Part shown: one piece after another, positions 35,038 to 41,615 of the stretch | Numbering within the stretch: position 1 is the first letter of the stretch | How the letters are laid out: each line of letters begins with the position of its first letter | Assembly: GCA_017849585.1 (NCBI GenBank) | Contig: JAFIGT010000011.1 | Coordinates: forward strand, 62,001 to 126,000 | Origin: Verrucomicrobium sp. | GTDB taxonomy: Bacteria; Verrucomicrobiota; Verrucomicrobiia; Methylacidiphilales; UBA1321 | Length of the DNA: 64,000 bases | Direction: 5' to 3' | The notes under the pieces: model-generated | What the model was told of the DNA's origin: nothing | Database searches by the model: none | What the model saw: only the letters and a program-made list of their open reading frames with translations | Program-made: the position numbers and the translations under genes

Positions 35038-37701
35038 ATGTTTCGCGAATTGATCGGTAAAATCACTCCGGCTGTTTTTCTAAAGGAAGCTAGGGCCGCT
35101 TCCCGAACCATCACCGAACATGAACAGCGATTGGTGGCGATATGTGGTCTCACTGTCGAGGAGACAGTGGCAAAATTGGGAGTGACGGATCAGGGATTGA
35201 GCGCAGGGGCCGTGGAGGAACGGCGCGCGGAGTTCGGCGCAAACGAACTGGGGCCGAAGGTGGCGCACGGATTTCTTTTCGAGATTCTGGAACGATGTAA
35301 AAATCCCCTCGTCATCCAGTTGGTGATCATCTGCGGGGTGTCGCTCGCGATGGAGGATTTCCGTTCCGCCACGGTCGTCGGCGGGATGCTATTTCTAAGC
35401 GTGATGCTCTCCTATTTTCAGGAACGCCGTTCCAATCTCGCCGTGGAACGACTCCGCGCGATGGTGCAGACCAACTCGATCGTGATCCGCGACGGCAAGG
35501 AAGAGGAATTGCCGATGAGCGAACTGGTCCCCGGCGATCTGATCGTGCTGCAGGCGGGGGCGATCATCCCGGCGGACGTGCGTCTGATCAGCGCGAAGGA
35601 CTTTTTCGTCAGCCAATCCTCGCTCACCGGCGAATCGATGCCGGTGGAGAAGAATACCGCTGCCAGCAATGTCAGTGGTCGCGGCCTGATCGAACTCCAG
35701 AACGCGTGCTTCCAAGGCAGCAACGTCCTGAGCGGCTCGGCCCGCGCGGTGGTCGTCAATACGGGCACCCGCACCCACTTTGGTGCGATCTCGGCGAAGT
35801 TATCCGATGCGCCGGTGCCGACGAGTTTTGACCGCGGCATCTCGGGGTTCACGTGGTTGATGATCCGCTACATGGTGATCATGGTGGCGGTGGTGTTCCT
35901 GATCGTGGGCTTAACGAAGCACGATTGGGTGGATGCGCTGTTGTTCGGCCTGGCCATTGCGGTGGGGTTGACCCCGGAGATGTTGCCGATGATTGTGACG
36001 GTGAATCTGTCGCGCGGAGCGATGAGCATGTCGCGCAAGAAGGTGATCGTGAAGCGGCTGAACTCGATCCAGAACTTCGGCGCGATCGACATCCTGTGCA
36101 CGGACAAAACCGGAACGCTGACGCAGGACAACATTGTCCTCGAAAAACATGTCGATGTGACCAATCGCGACAGCGACGACGTGCTGCGCTACGCGTGGAT
36201 GAACAGCTATTATCAAACCGGGCTGCGCAACCTGCTGGACCGCTCGATTCTTTCCCACGCCGATCTCGATGTGGAGCGCAACTGCCGCAAGGTCGACGAA
36301 ATTCCGTTCGACTTCCAACGCAAGCGGATGTCGGTGGTAATCGACTACGAGGAAGACCACGTGCTGATCTGCAAAGGCGCGGTGGAGGATATCTACCGGG
36401 CCTGCACGCACTATCAGGTGGATGACGAAATCCACCCGATGATCGATCTGATCAAGAACGACCTGTTGGAGGAATATGAGGCGTTCAGCGCGGACGGCTA
36501 CCGCGTGCTGGCGATTGCGTACCGCGAGTTTCCGCGCTCGAAGCAGGTCTTCTCCGTCGAAGATGAGAACGAATTGATCCTGCTCGGCTACATCGCGTTT
36601 TTCGATCCGCCGAAGGATTCCTCCGCGAAGGCGATCGAAATGCTGCTCAAGGCGGGCGTGAGCACGAAGGTGCTCACGGGTGACAATGCCTTGGTGACGC
36701 GCAAGATTTGCCGCGACGTCGGCCTGCACGTCGATGAGGTGATCACGGGCGACCGACTTTTGACGCTCTCGCAGGACGAACTCGGCGCTCTCGCGGAAAA
36801 GCACAATGTCTTCGCGCGACTCTCCCCGACGCAAAAAGAGGAGATCATCGTCGCGCTGCAAAAGCGAGGTCACGTGGTCGGCTACCTCGGCGACGGCATC
36901 AACGATGCGCCATCGTTGCGCGTGGCGGACGTGGGCATCTCGGTCGATACGGCGGTGGATGTGGCGAAGGAATCGGCGGATATCGTGCTGCTGGAAAAAA
37001 GCCTGATGGTGCTGGAGGACGGCATCATCGAAGGCCGCAAGGTTTTCGGCAACATCATCAAATACATCCGCATGGGCGCGAGCTCGAATTTCGGCAATAT
37101 GTTCAGCGTGGTGGGCGGGAGCTACTTCTTGCCATTCCTGCCGATGGCGCCGATTCAGGTGCTGGTGAACAACCTGCTCTATGATGCGTCGCAGGTGGGC
37201 ATCCCGATGGATAACGTGGATGAGGAGTACATCAAGACGCCGCGCAAATGGAACATCGAGAACATCAAGAAGTTCATGCTCTTCATCGGGCCGATGAGCT
37301 CGCTCTTCGATTATGCGACGTTCTTCCTGATGCTTTATTTCTTCAACTGCCGTCTCTTCAGTGATCCCGGCACAAGCCCGGCGATGAAGGATTACTACGA
37401 GAGCCTTTTCCATACTGGCTGGTTCGTGGAATCGATCCTGACACAGACATTGATCGTGCACATCATTCGTTCACGCAAGATCCCGTTCTTTCAAAGCAGT
37501 CCAAGCGCGACGCTGGTGCTGAGCACGCTGGTAGTGATGACGCTGGGCGTCTACTTACCGTATTCGCCTGTGGCACATTATTTCGGCATGGTGCCGCTGC
37601 CGCCGATTTACTGGGCGTGGATCGTGGGCTTCCTGGTGACGTATGCGACCCTGACCCATTTTGTGAAGGTGTGGTTCTTTAACAAGTACGGAGTGGATTA
37701 A
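35038..37701 (+). CDS. mgtA: Magnesium-translocating P-type ATPase (P3B, MgtA/MgtB)
   Basis: 887 residues. P-type motifs are in order: TGES (197-200, actuator domain), LTPEMLP in the fourth membrane helix (P3B signature around 311-317), DKTGTLTQ with phosphorylated D356, and GDGIND near 620. The helices after that include PFLPMAPIQVLVNNLLYDASQ, typical for MgtA/B. The soluble N-terminus is ~75 residues. It imports Mg2+ at the expense of ATP. No convincing M-box or mgtL-like leader was seen in the 230 bp upstream. Its stop overlaps the next gene's start (TAATG). Confidence 0.96.
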   Translation: MFRELIGKITPAVFLKEARAASRTITEHEQRLVAICGLTVEETVAKLGVTDQGLSAGAVEERRAEFGANELGPKVAHGFLFEILERCKNPLVIQLVIICGVSLAMEDFRSATVVGGMLFLSVMLSYFQERRSNLAVERLRAMVQTNSIVIRDGKEEELPMSELVPGDLIVLQAGAIIPADVRLISAKDFFVSQSSLTGESMPVEKNTAASNVSGRGLIELQNACFQGSNVLSGSARAVVVNTGTRTHFGAISAKLSDAPVPTSFDRGISGFTWLMIRYMVIMVAVVFLIVGLTKHDWVDALLFGLAIAVGLTPEMLPMIVTVNLSRGAMSMSRKKVIVKRLNSIQNFGAIDILCTDKTGTLTQDNIVLEKHVDVTNRDSDDVLRYAWMNSYYQTGLRNLLDRSILSHADLDVERNCRKVDEIPFDFQRKRMSVVIDYEEDHVLICKGAVEDIYRACTHYQVDDEIHPMIDLIKNDLLEEYEAFSADGYRVLAIAYREFPRSKQVFSVEDENELILLGYIAFFDPPKDSSAKAIEMLLKAGVSTKVLTGDNALVTRKICRDVGLHVDEVITGDRLLTLSQDELGALAEKHNVFARLSPTQKEEIIVALQKRGHVVGYLGDGINDAPSLRVADVGISVDTAVDVAKESADIVLLEKSLMVLEDGIIEGRKVFGNIIKYIRMGASSNFGNMFSVVGGSYFLPFLPMAPIQVLVNNLLYDASQVGIPMDNVDEEYIKTPRKWNIENIKKFMLFIGPMSSLFDYATFFLMLYFFNCRLFSDPGTSPAMKDYYESLFHTGWFVESILTQTLIVHIIRSRKIPFFQSSPSATLVLSTLVVMTLGVYLPYSPVAHYFGMVPLPPIYWAWIVGFLVTYATLTHFVKVWFFNKYGVD

Positions 37702-38507
37702 TGAAAAGTCTCTTGAACGCGTTGCAGGATGGCCGCCTGATTGAATTGCCGGATAGCTCCAAGGAAAAGGCGCTGCAATATCTCGCGACGCTCATTGAAG
37801 CGATTCCTGATCTAAAGGCGGGCACAGATGTTGCGGAGGGCGTACTGGCCCGCGAACGTGCGTACAACACGGGCATCGGCAAGGGCTGGGGTTGTCCCCA
37901 TGTGCGGACGAATCAGGACGGCGAACTGGTCTGCGCGGTGGGTTGGAGTCCGGCCGGACTGGATTACGGCTCGAGCGACGGCGCGCTGGTGCATCTGGTG
38001 GTGATGTATTATGTCCCGGACAGCCAGAAGAACGCGTATCTGAAGGAAATCTCGACGCTGGCGCGGGCGATTCAAACTGTCCCGGCATTACAGGACTTAA
38101 GCTCGCTCAACGATCTCTCCGAGGCGCGGCACCGGTTGCTGGACATCATTTCCGCCGCGGTGGAATCGTACGGTCCTGAGGCCAAAGCACGCATGATCCG
38201 GCTGGAAGCGAAACAAGCCGCAGTAGTAGAGCCAGCCCTGGCGCAAGAACTGCCGTTTGATATCGCGCATGATATTCTCGCCCTCAACGTACTGGTGCTG
38301 CAGGGCGGCAAATCGCTGATCCTGACACAGCATGCGGACTTGGTGACGCACCTGGAAGCATCGCACGATTTGCCGGCATCGCTGAGCAAACATACGCCCT
38401 TTGATCTGGCTGGCTACCGGATCATTCCGCGTGGAGCCACGACGTACCAGCCGGACCGGTTGCTGTACGATTGCCTCGCGATCAAGTTGCAGGCAAAGCT
38501 TGCGTGA
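37701..38507 (+). CDS. PTS EIIA type-2 domain protein coupled to mgtA
   Basis: 268 residues. Residues ~1-145 form a fructose/nitrogen-type EIIA domain: LLNALQDGRLIELP at the start, VLARERAYNTGIGKGWGCPH with the phospho-accepting His at 67, DGALVHLVVMYYVP and a final helix. Residues ~150-268 form a second domain that I do not recognise (LPFDIAHDILALNVLVLQGGKS..., ...AGYRIIPRG). The ATG shares its A with the mgtA stop (TAATG), so translation is coupled. No EI, HPr or EIIBC is present. It looks regulatory, perhaps setting Mg2+ or other cation uptake by phosphorylation state. Confidence 0.85.
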   Translation: MKSLLNALQDGRLIELPDSSKEKALQYLATLIEAIPDLKAGTDVAEGVLARERAYNTGIGKGWGCPHVRTNQDGELVCAVGWSPAGLDYGSSDGALVHLVVMYYVPDSQKNAYLKEISTLARAIQTVPALQDLSSLNDLSEARHRLLDIISAAVESYGPEAKARMIRLEAKQAAVVEPALAQELPFDIAHDILALNVLVLQGGKSLILTQHADLVTHLEASHDLPASLSKHTPFDLAGYRIIPRGATTYQPDRLLYDCLAIKLQAKLA

Positions 38508-38549: not shown

Positions 38550-41500
38550 ATGAGTATCCCTGCCGAGTCACCGTTTGAGTCGTCTCCTGTGGAGACCGTC
38601 GCCGATCGAACACGTGAAGGGGCCATTGGCCTGAGCGATTGGTTGGCGGCGGCGTTGGTGATGCTGGTTTCGTTCGCGCTTTATGTTTACACGCTCATGC
38701 CGAACGTGGGCATGCTCGACTCCGGCGAACTGGTTACGGCGGCGGCGCTCTTCGGTGTGCCGCATCCTCCGGGGTATCCATTCTGGAGCTTGACCGGTTT
38801 TATCCTCACAGAAATTCTGCCGGTCGGAAATTACGCATGGCGGATCAATCTGCTCTCCGCGATTTTCGGCTCGCTCTCGTGCGCGTTGCTGGCTTTGCTG
38901 GTCGCCGCGTCAAGCCGCTGGCTGCTCATTCGCTCCATGCCGGAGGATCGTGCCCAACGGGCGCGGCTTTCCTTCTACGGTGGCGCAACGGCGGGCTTCA
39001 TCCTGGCGTTCAGCGAAGTGATGTGGGGGCAGGCAGTCGTCTCCGATCACGTGCGCACGCAGAATTCCTTTTTGCTTCTGTTGACCTTCGTCTGCATGTA
39101 CCGGTGGATTATTAATCCGGACAAGCGGCGTTGGCTGCTGGCCTCGGTGTTCGTGTTCTGTCTCGGTGTGACGAATCATCCGACCATCCTCGCGAATGCG
39201 CCCGCGTTTTTGCTGCCGGTTTATTTTGTGCGACGCCGCTTCTTTCCGTCCTTCCTCGTCGGCTATGTGCTGCTGGCGATGACCGCGATGGGTGTGCTGT
39301 CGTGGTACTCAGGGGATTACGGCATGCAGGCGATTGCGGGACGGCTCGCACTGGGCACCGCGGTATTGTCGGCAGGAATCGGCTTCTGGCACATGAAGGA
39401 GTTTCACCTGCAGCGATTCCTGATCGGTGCCCTGATTATCGGCGTGATCTGGCTGGCGGCCGGGTATGGAATCGGTGGCTGGTTCCGGGTGGATTCGCGG
39501 TTTGGATTGGAGCTTTTTTTGCTGGCGAGTGTGGCGGCCGGTTTCGTGGCCACTTCGATCCTTGACTGGCGTTTCATCGTGGGGGCGCTGCTGGCCGGAT
39601 GGTGCGCGCTGTTCATGTTTGCGAAGAGCCAGATTTCCTCCGCGACGAATCCACCGATGAACTGGAGTTACGCCAAGGAAAATCGCGGTCTGTACCAATC
39701 CATCGTGCGCGGTCAGTACGACAACAGTCTTCCGACGATGATCAAGCGCCATGTGGGACCAATCGTTGGCTATCATGATCGCGAAGCGGTTTCGGACCGG
39801 ACGAATGACATGGCATCGCAGATCGAATACTTTGGTATTCTCGCGCGCACGATCAAGCTTTACGTCCTGAGCCTGGAGTGGAATTTCACTCTGCCGATCT
39901 GCCTATTGGTTTTTCCACTGCGCCTCTATTTCCGTCATTTGGACGAACACCAGCGACCGTGGGTGTACTTCATGATTTTTTCGTTCGTACTGCTCGCGTT
40001 CACGCTGACATTTGTCGATACGCCGAAGATGCTCGATAATGCGTCGTGGATGGCGGTGAAGCCGTTCCACATTCTCTCCCATTGCCTGATCGTGATGGCG
40101 ATTGGCTACGGGATTGTTTCCGGACTGCTTTACCTGTCAGAGCTCATGAGGGGATTGCCCACCTGGCTCCTGGCAGCGTCACTGTGCTTGGCATTGTTGC
40201 CGCTGCAGGAGAACGTATTGAAGTCGAGCCGCCGGGGTCATTGGTTCGGCTGGATGTACGGCGTGGACATGCTGAAGCCGCTGGACAAAGGCGCGATCGT
40301 TTATGGCGGCACCGATCCGGGGCGCTTCATCCCGACCTACATGATCTTTTGCGAAAGCCAGCAACCGGATCGTTTCAAGCGCGATCCCAGCTTCGACCGC
40401 CGCGATCTCTACATCATCACGCAAAATGCCCTGGCCGACATCGATTACGAGCGCTACATCCGCGATCATTACGATGACCGGTTCCGCCCGAAAACATTCA
40501 CGGCTTTCGAAAAGTGGCTGGGCCGCGACAAGCAGTATCCGAAGGAAAGTTTGAATCTGCTTAGTGATGAGGAATTTGGCGAATGTTACCGGGAGTTCGC
40601 CGAGGAAAAACCGCGTCGCGCCAGCGCTAATGATCCCATGGAGATCTTCCGGCTCAATGGCATCGTGGCGAAGCGGATCTTCGACAAAAACAAGGCCAAA
40701 CACACTTTCTATGTGGAGGAGAGCATCCGCGTGGAGTGGATGTATGCATATATGGTTCCTGCCGGCTTGCTCCTGCGGCTGAATCCGGAGCCGCTGAAGA
40801 CGTTGCCGCCGGCTACGATCGCGGAGGATCGCAAGTTTTGGGACGCCTACACGCAGCGGTTGCTGAACGACCCGCATTTTGCCCGCGATCCAGACGCGCA
40901 ACGCAGCTTTGCGAAATTGCGCAATTCTACCGCGAATATGTACCGGTGGCGCGGATTGAAGGATGAGGCTTTGTATGCGTACCGGCAGGCGCTGCAGCTC
41001 TCGGCAGATAATGCGGAGGTGGTGGAGACCTATTTCCAGTACCTCATCCAGCTCGATCTTTTTGATGAGGCGCAAAGCCTGATCGAACGGACCCGCCGGA
41101 TTGATCCGCGTAACGATGCCTATGACAAGATGTTGGTGGATATCCGCCGGGGACGCGAGGGCGCGGTGGAGCTGCGAGAGGTGCAGGGACAATTGGCGAT
41201 AAAACCGCACGATCTGGCGCTGCGGATGCGCGAGGTGGAGTTGTTGGGCGGACGTCGCAATCCAGAGCAGTTCCTGAGCAGTTTGGAAAAACTGATCGCG
41301 CATCCGGATTTGCCGCATGATGTGTTCGTGCAATATATGCGGCTGCTCACCGATACAGGTTATCTGGACGATGCCTTGCGGATGTTGGCGCTGCGGGCCA
41401 GGTTGGAACCGAAGAATGGGGACCTGCAGTTCAATCACGCCGCATTGGCTGCCTACAAGGGAGAAACGAAACAGGCGCTGCAAGCGTTACGTCAGGCGAT

Positions 41501-41615
41501 TGCCATCAATCGTGATGTCTACACGGAATCGGCGCGGACTGATCTGCGTTTCCTGTCATTGCGCACGAACGCGGAGTTTCGCAAGCTGGTGCCGCCGTTG
41601 GCCCCGCCGCATTGA
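38550..41615 (+). CDS. DUF2723 (GT-C-like, protein O-mannosyltransferase-like) membrane protein with TPR tail
   Basis: 1021 residues. After a short soluble start there are about 11-12 membrane helices (35-560). The first loop has LMPNVGMLDSGELVTAAALFG followed by VPHPPGYPFW, the DUF2723 signature; the Asp in DSGE is the presumed catalytic acid of GT-C enzymes. The soluble C-terminus (about 790-1020) consists of TPR-like helical pairs (ALYAYRQALQLSADNAEVV, DEAQSLIERTRRIDPRN). The likely role is lipid-linked sugar transfer on the periplasmic side. Donor unknown. A strong terminator follows. Confidence 0.88.
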   Translation: MSIPAESPFESSPVETVADRTREGAIGLSDWLAAALVMLVSFALYVYTLMPNVGMLDSGELVTAAALFGVPHPPGYPFWSLTGFILTEILPVGNYAWRINLLSAIFGSLSCALLALLVAASSRWLLIRSMPEDRAQRARLSFYGGATAGFILAFSEVMWGQAVVSDHVRTQNSFLLLLTFVCMYRWIINPDKRRWLLASVFVFCLGVTNHPTILANAPAFLLPVYFVRRRFFPSFLVGYVLLAMTAMGVLSWYSGDYGMQAIAGRLALGTAVLSAGIGFWHMKEFHLQRFLIGALIIGVIWLAAGYGIGGWFRVDSRFGLELFLLASVAAGFVATSILDWRFIVGALLAGWCALFMFAKSQISSATNPPMNWSYAKENRGLYQSIVRGQYDNSLPTMIKRHVGPIVGYHDREAVSDRTNDMASQIEYFGILARTIKLYVLSLEWNFTLPICLLVFPLRLYFRHLDEHQRPWVYFMIFSFVLLAFTLTFVDTPKMLDNASWMAVKPFHILSHCLIVMAIGYGIVSGLLYLSELMRGLPTWLLAASLCLALLPLQENVLKSSRRGHWFGWMYGVDMLKPLDKGAIVYGGTDPGRFIPTYMIFCESQQPDRFKRDPSFDRRDLYIITQNALADIDYERYIRDHYDDRFRPKTFTAFEKWLGRDKQYPKESLNLLSDEEFGECYREFAEEKPRRASANDPMEIFRLNGIVAKRIFDKNKAKHTFYVEESIRVEWMYAYMVPAGLLLRLNPEPLKTLPPATIAEDRKFWDAYTQRLLNDPHFARDPDAQRSFAKLRNSTANMYRWRGLKDEALYAYRQALQLSADNAEVVETYFQYLIQLDLFDEAQSLIERTRRIDPRNDAYDKMLVDIRRGREGAVELREVQGQLAIKPHDLALRMREVELLGGRRNPEQFLSSLEKLIAHPDLPHDVFVQYMRLLTDTGYLDDALRMLALRARLEPKNGDLQFNHAALAAYKGETKQALQALRQAIAINRDVYTESARTDLRFLSLRTNAEFRKLVPPLAPPH

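Follow-up and report, generated by a model that had tools for sequence, protein, structure and literature searches.

The window analysed here, a stretch of 64,000 nucleotides from a contig of Verrucomicrobium sp., carries a gene for a magnesium pump, mgtA, that runs directly into a gene for a PTS EIIA protein (Table 1). This arrangement raises the question of what an EIIA protein does beside an Mg2+ transporter. Here, we asked whether the pair is conserved, whether its members are what they appear to be, and which relationship between them best accounts for their distribution.

Table 1. Features of the mgtA–EIIA locus, in window coordinates
Feature	Position	Strand	Description and basis
mgtA	35038..37701	+	887 aa; TIGR01524, Pfam domains, tree; belongs to the EIIA-partnered MgtA clade
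Approximate nucleotide-binding (N) domain, mgtA codons 373-520	36154..36597	+	candidate docking surface; limits approximate
TAATG stop/start overlap (translational coupling)	37699..37703	+	sequence
EIIA partner of MgtA	37701..38507	+	268 aa; PF00359 E 5.5e-20; AlphaFold2 mean pLDDT 86
EIIA domain, residues 14-144 by Pfam	37740..38132	+	EIIA-Ntr/fructose-type fold; Pfam and Foldseek
H67 codon, predicted phospho-acceptor histidine	37899..37901	+	invariant 53/53; aligns with the PtsN histidine
C-terminal alpha/beta domain, ~residues 188-265	38262..38495	+	pLDDT ~95; no Pfam match; R253 and C258 conserved

MgtA is a full-length predicted Mg2+-translocating P-type ATPase (P3B), import itself being part of the prediction. 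The Mg-translocating P-type ATPase model TIGR01524 matches residues 40-885 with 1089 bits against a cut-off of 611, Pfam recognizes Cation_ATPase_N, E1-E2_ATPase, Hydrolase and Cation_ATPase_C, and the translation contains all three P-type signatures (DKTGT, TGES and GDGINDAP). The initial annotation, which had placed an Mg2+ P-type ATPase here, is borne out by this score and these signatures, and it was also correct in describing a TAATG overlap, as the mgtA stop TAA (37699-37701) and the partner start ATG (37701-37703) have one base in common. Close spacing is typical of the pair, the two genes lying -1 to 39 bases apart in 39 of the 42 measured cases and 224-275 bases apart in the other three. 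Since the flanking genes are common to close relatives only, it is the pair itself that has been retained; the downstream gene (38550-41615), encoding a TMEM260-like protein O-mannosyl-transferase domain with C-terminal TPR repeats, lies outside it. An Rfam search of the locus returned no riboswitch or leader RNA at E <=0.5.

The partner is an EIIA protein by fold. PF00359 (PTS_EIIA_2) matches it with 72.3 bits (gathering score 27; E 5.5e-20), and H67 sits in a CPHVR motif whose PH aligns with that of PtsN, in agreement with the earlier claim that the domain retains its phospho-His. R51, E52, T57, P66 and H67 occur in every one of the 53 partners, so that the active-site Arg and the phospho-acceptor of the EIIA_2 domain are both conserved. 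At the position of the second His in solved PtsN sequences, the partners carry Tyr (Y113; 50 proteins) or Phe (three), which we did not take as excluding EIIA_2 membership, because the other EIIA of this genome also has Tyr there. The PtsN equivalog TIGR01419 scores 46.8 bits, below its cut-off of 138.7, and for this reason we do not file the partner as PtsN; at most, it works like PtsN. In an AlphaFold2 model built on a 44-sequence alignment, confidence is high for the EIIA domain, low for a linker (~162-184) and high again for a separate domain (~188-265), and the top Foldseek structures are EIIA-Ntr 2a0j (E 1.4e-8, TM 0.76 by target length), 3urr and 1a6j; against a viral library, the EIIA model gave no match at E <=0.001. 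No Pfam family matched the C-terminal ~120 residues, which are modelled with a fold of their own, much as the initial annotation had described a second, unassigned domain of ~115 residues. In a profile search of this domain against PDB sequences, the best hit was a designed repeat protein over 42 positions, which we took as chance.

Among 60 genomes of the window's own genus, family and order, six encode a full-length partner homolog, each directly behind mgtA sequence (disordered in locus L008). A motif-guided scan of public genomes yielded 43 loci in MAGs with titles that include Verrucomicrobia, Spirochaetes, Elusimicrobia and Desulfobulbus, a taxonomic range that represents a lower bound because the scan relied on two short peptide patterns. 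Relatives with named records are mostly metagenome-assembled, and one locus titled Proteobacteria (L088) is probably mislabelled, because its MgtA is near-identical to that of a Spartobacteria locus. In 41 of the 43 loci mgtA sequence lies upstream, the full-length copies being 61-77% identical; the other two are L071, which starts at a contig end, and L077. In the latter (L077:7249-8792), the EIIA gene has no adjacent mgtA, and the 230-aa frame upstream resembles peptide methionine sulfoxide reductase by eye. At two loci (L008:1-1500 and L073:5051-6700), the mgtA sequence upstream of the EIIA gene consists of short, overlapping, out-of-order matches, possibly reflecting an assembly error or a decayed gene. 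Overall, every full-length partner homolog with upstream sequence, except that of L077, follows an MgtA, and the association is far beyond chance.

The association is also specific to one kind of MgtA. Within the phylum, sampled through 388 genomes, the partner lies immediately downstream in 20 of the 21 MgtAs at least 55% identical to that of the window and in none of the 19 more distant ones (<=53% identical), although these counts are not independent trials because the sequences are related. The survey proposed in the initial annotation, for mgtA followed by the two-domain EIIA, thus finds the pair conserved. Genome G176 serves as an internal control, since it encodes both kinds of MgtA and has the partner beside the close kind only. 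When mapped onto a 69-MgtA tree, the partner trait requires two changes versus 15.4 with shuffled labels, most simply one gain and one loss, the latter in genome G333 (locus L121), and MgtA and EIIA-domain distances correlate closely across 53 gene pairs (r = 0.89). Plasmids searched for the partner held distant EIIA domains only.

A further observation concerns a second Mg2+ transporter. Partner matches at E <=1e-30 occur in 22 of the 388 genomes; in 20 of these the gene stands beside MgtA, and in the remaining two (L116 in G255 and L117 in G174) EIIA forms the N-terminal domain of a protein of ~620-640 residues, the rest of which consists of MgtE_N, CBS and MgtE domains (TIGR00400 mgtE, 402 and 423 bits). 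MgtE has nothing in common with MgtA beyond Mg2+ transport and is a channel. While these fusions resemble the partner in bearing an EIIA domain of its subfamily, canonical MgtE senses Mg2+ via its N and CBS domains, without an EIIA. The EIIA tree places MgtA partners and MgtE fusions on one side of a branch with support of 88/92, short of decisive, and the C-terminal domain of the MgtA partner is absent from the fusions. Within the 388 genomes, then, this EIIA subfamily is found almost only beside one MgtA branch or fused to MgtE, and because of this restriction the partner probably ties Mg2+ uptake to the energy state of the cell.

A pair of closely related genomes is instructive in the same respect. 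G094 and G113 belong to one genus, measure 0.9 Mb each and are 99% complete. G094 retains mgtA and the partner; at the syntenic site in G113, again followed by the two genes that resemble hemB and adk, mgtA is fragmented and the EIIA gene is broken, its CPHAR having become RPYAR, and a canonical EIIA and EI are retained. We read this as joint decay of mgtA and the EIIA gene, presumably after loss of the pump.

Phosphorylation of H67 would proceed through EI and HPr, and genes for both are present in all 25 genomes that carry a partner or a fusion. EI is, however, also encoded in 20 of 20 comparison genomes, none with an intact partner; its presence is therefore no evidence for a specific link, and we rejected the idea that EI is there on account of the partner. 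In the window's own genome, EI and HPr are encoded away from the contig of the window, on C23 and C25. On the former, outside the window, an 803-aa frame (G000:C23:75862-77001) joins EIIA-man, HPr and EI in a DhaM-like layout, and on the latter there is a separate EI gene with an adjacent HPr. A cognate PTS permease for the partner, sought through the EIIC family PF02378, was not found above the cut-off in the own genome or in 26 others, control genomes being positive as expected. As EI and HPr are encoded on other contigs and this EIIC family is absent genome-wide, the earlier observation that no PTS permease, EI or HPr gene is nearby holds for these families. G156 lacks EIIA-man and encodes no PF00359 protein besides the MgtA partner, which is thus its sole EIIA from these two families.

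To look for a possible binding site of the partner on MgtA, we compared the N domain (residues ~373-520) among MgtA representatives below 75% identity. Pairs of partnered MgtAs are 0.66 identical in this domain versus 0.55 in the rest of the protein, and pairs of partnerless MgtAs 0.45 versus 0.52; relative to partnerless MgtAs, the N domain shows an excess of 0.235, and every non-overlapping stretch of equal length one of <=0.117. In addition, ten of the 17 residues that separate the two MgtA clades fall at 372-502. The N domain thus appears over-conserved specifically in partnered MgtAs, making it a possible EIIA docking site, and the constraint would fit docking there by likeness to EIIA-Glc, which binds the nucleotide-binding domains of MalK according to a review (PMC10710835). 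We also looked for relaxation of the N domain after partner loss and did not see it: in L121 (G333), the domain is as conserved as in its sisters, so that the constraint need not stem from EIIA binding. An AlphaFold2 model of the chain formed by stop read-through from MgtA into EIIA (L080) had a mean pLDDT of 64 with an unfolded N domain, too poor to be informative on docking.

Taking these observations together, we consider it likely that the partner is a dedicated regulatory subunit of MgtA, switched at H67 and coupling Mg2+ import to the PEP status of the cell. We infer a partner–MgtA interaction, phosphorylation, a direction of control and a role for the C-terminal domain along the following lines. 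H67 in the EIIA-Ntr-type domain would be phosphorylated by EI and HPr, whose genes lie at other sites, and the state of the partner would therefore report PEP (energy, carbon) status. One state, most likely the unphosphorylated one, would bind MgtA from the cytoplasmic side, with the N domain as the probable site, and restrain ATP-driven Mg2+ uptake; phosphorylation would release this brake. Unphosphorylated PtsN is described as binding, and thereby inhibiting, the K+/H+ antiporter YcgO (PMC11808508), and by analogy restraint by the unphosphorylated partner is the most likely sign of control. The C-terminal domain may add an MgtA-specific contact or a further input, considering that it is missing from the EIIA–MgtE fusions.

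The same fold could also serve an assembly, stability or allosteric subunit, sensing Mg2+ or nucleotides independently of phosphorylation, as in the cytoplasmic domains of SLC4 proteins. Such a role would suit the appearance of SLC4 anion exchangers in the Foldseek list of the partner model (7x1i and 5jho; E 7e-4 to 9e-3), the conservation of the orphan C-terminal domain in nearly all partners and the existence of an MgtA without partner in G333. However, the invariance of H67, R51, E52 and T57 in all 53 partners would be unexpected had phosphotransfer been lost, and we regard a phosphorylation-independent subunit as rather unlikely. Least credible of all, to the point of being very improbable, is an inherited operon without a functional link, in which the neighbour has merely moved along with mgtA. 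The single gain on the MgtA tree agrees with such a history, and co-inheritance alone could hold the adjacency for some time, but the pair is still found at MgtA identities as low as 54-55% and under MAG titles from several phyla, the EIIA has been independently fused to an unrelated Mg2+ transporter, and both genes decayed jointly in G113.

The initial annotation had left two roles side by side: the EIIA-like protein might be a sensor or gate for MgtA, or a regulator of mgtA expression. The latter, extended to signalling of Mg2+ status to other targets, would follow the example of PtsN and KdpD, and EIIA-Ntr proteins do target KdpD, which regulates the expression of a transporter (PMC13104625). 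Nevertheless, we found no DNA-binding domain in the partner, whose C-terminal domain is modelled as alpha/beta and hits no Pfam family, and the subfamily is also fused to the MgtE channel; for these two reasons, control of expression is the less likely branch. Moreover, it is specifically MgtA that the gene follows, and no regulator gene is conserved in the vicinity; altogether we judge an expression or signalling role to be quite improbable. Sensing or gating of MgtA, the other branch, gains support from the conservation of the pair, the MgtE fusions, the decay in G113 and, to a lesser degree, the constraint on the N domain.

A dedicated regulatory subunit of this kind would have partial counterparts among known systems. 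With PtsN, the partner shares the fold, the conserved phospho-His, the lack of a permease component and, on our reading, cation transporters as targets (PMC13104625), the PtsN targets including the K+ transport proteins YcgO, TrkA and KdpD (PMC11808508 and PMC13104625). PtsN, however, is a stand-alone protein with many targets and K+ as its ion, whereas the partner gene overlaps that of an Mg2+ P-type ATPase, and its product has an additional domain at the C terminus and does not reach the PtsN cut-off. EIIA control of non-PTS transporters is likewise exerted by EIIA-Glc on MalFGK2 and LacY and by the EIIA-Glc-like domain of LacS (PMC10710835), but these are Glc-family EIIAs acting on sugar transporters. 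The small proteins MgtS, MgtR and MgtU provide post-translational control of the MgtA/MgtB pump family (PMC10710835); they differ in acting via FtsH-dependent stability, and none is an EIIA protein. Within the phylum, Na+/H+ exchangers with a C-terminal EIIA_2 domain (L178:1-1785, + strand; L179:2035-3789, - strand) are similar in that EIIA_2 is attached to an ion transporter, but belong to another transporter class, and their EIIA falls outside the MgtA/MgtE branch of the tree. A further EIIA_2 domain precedes DacZ_P and DAC by Pfam in L174:1181-2557 (G116:C29), a c-di-AMP cyclase with an N-terminal EIIA; similar frames of 448-469 aa occur in many genomes of family f12, and titles and abstracts of the literature searched mention no protein combining EIIA with diadenylate cyclase.

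Known PTS regulatory targets are K+ transporters and sugar permeases, and in the open-access literature, as represented by titles and abstracts, we found no paper linking the PTS to Mg2+ transporters and no description of EIIA with MgtA, MgtE or magnesium; magnesium is likewise absent from a 2026 PTS-Ntr review (PMC13104625). Within the same open-access scope, the initial impression that an EIIA–MgtA link is undescribed stands. The MgtE fusion and the overlapping gene pair make the hypothesis directly testable in a laboratory host. If it is true, a dedicated EIIA subunit would place Mg2+ import under PEP-driven post-translational control, and the EI/HPr/EIIA systems without PF02378 permeases in these bacteria would acquire a concrete task. 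Tentatively, as a possibility that we find plausible rather than probable, this distinct EIIA subfamily may be a transferable regulatory module for Mg2+ transporters, working on the P-type ATPase as an encoded subunit, via the ATP-binding N domain of the pump, and on MgtE as a fused domain, so that PEP status would directly set Mg2+ import; where PF02378 permeases are lacking, as in G156, this control may rank among the main outputs of the PTS phosphorelay.
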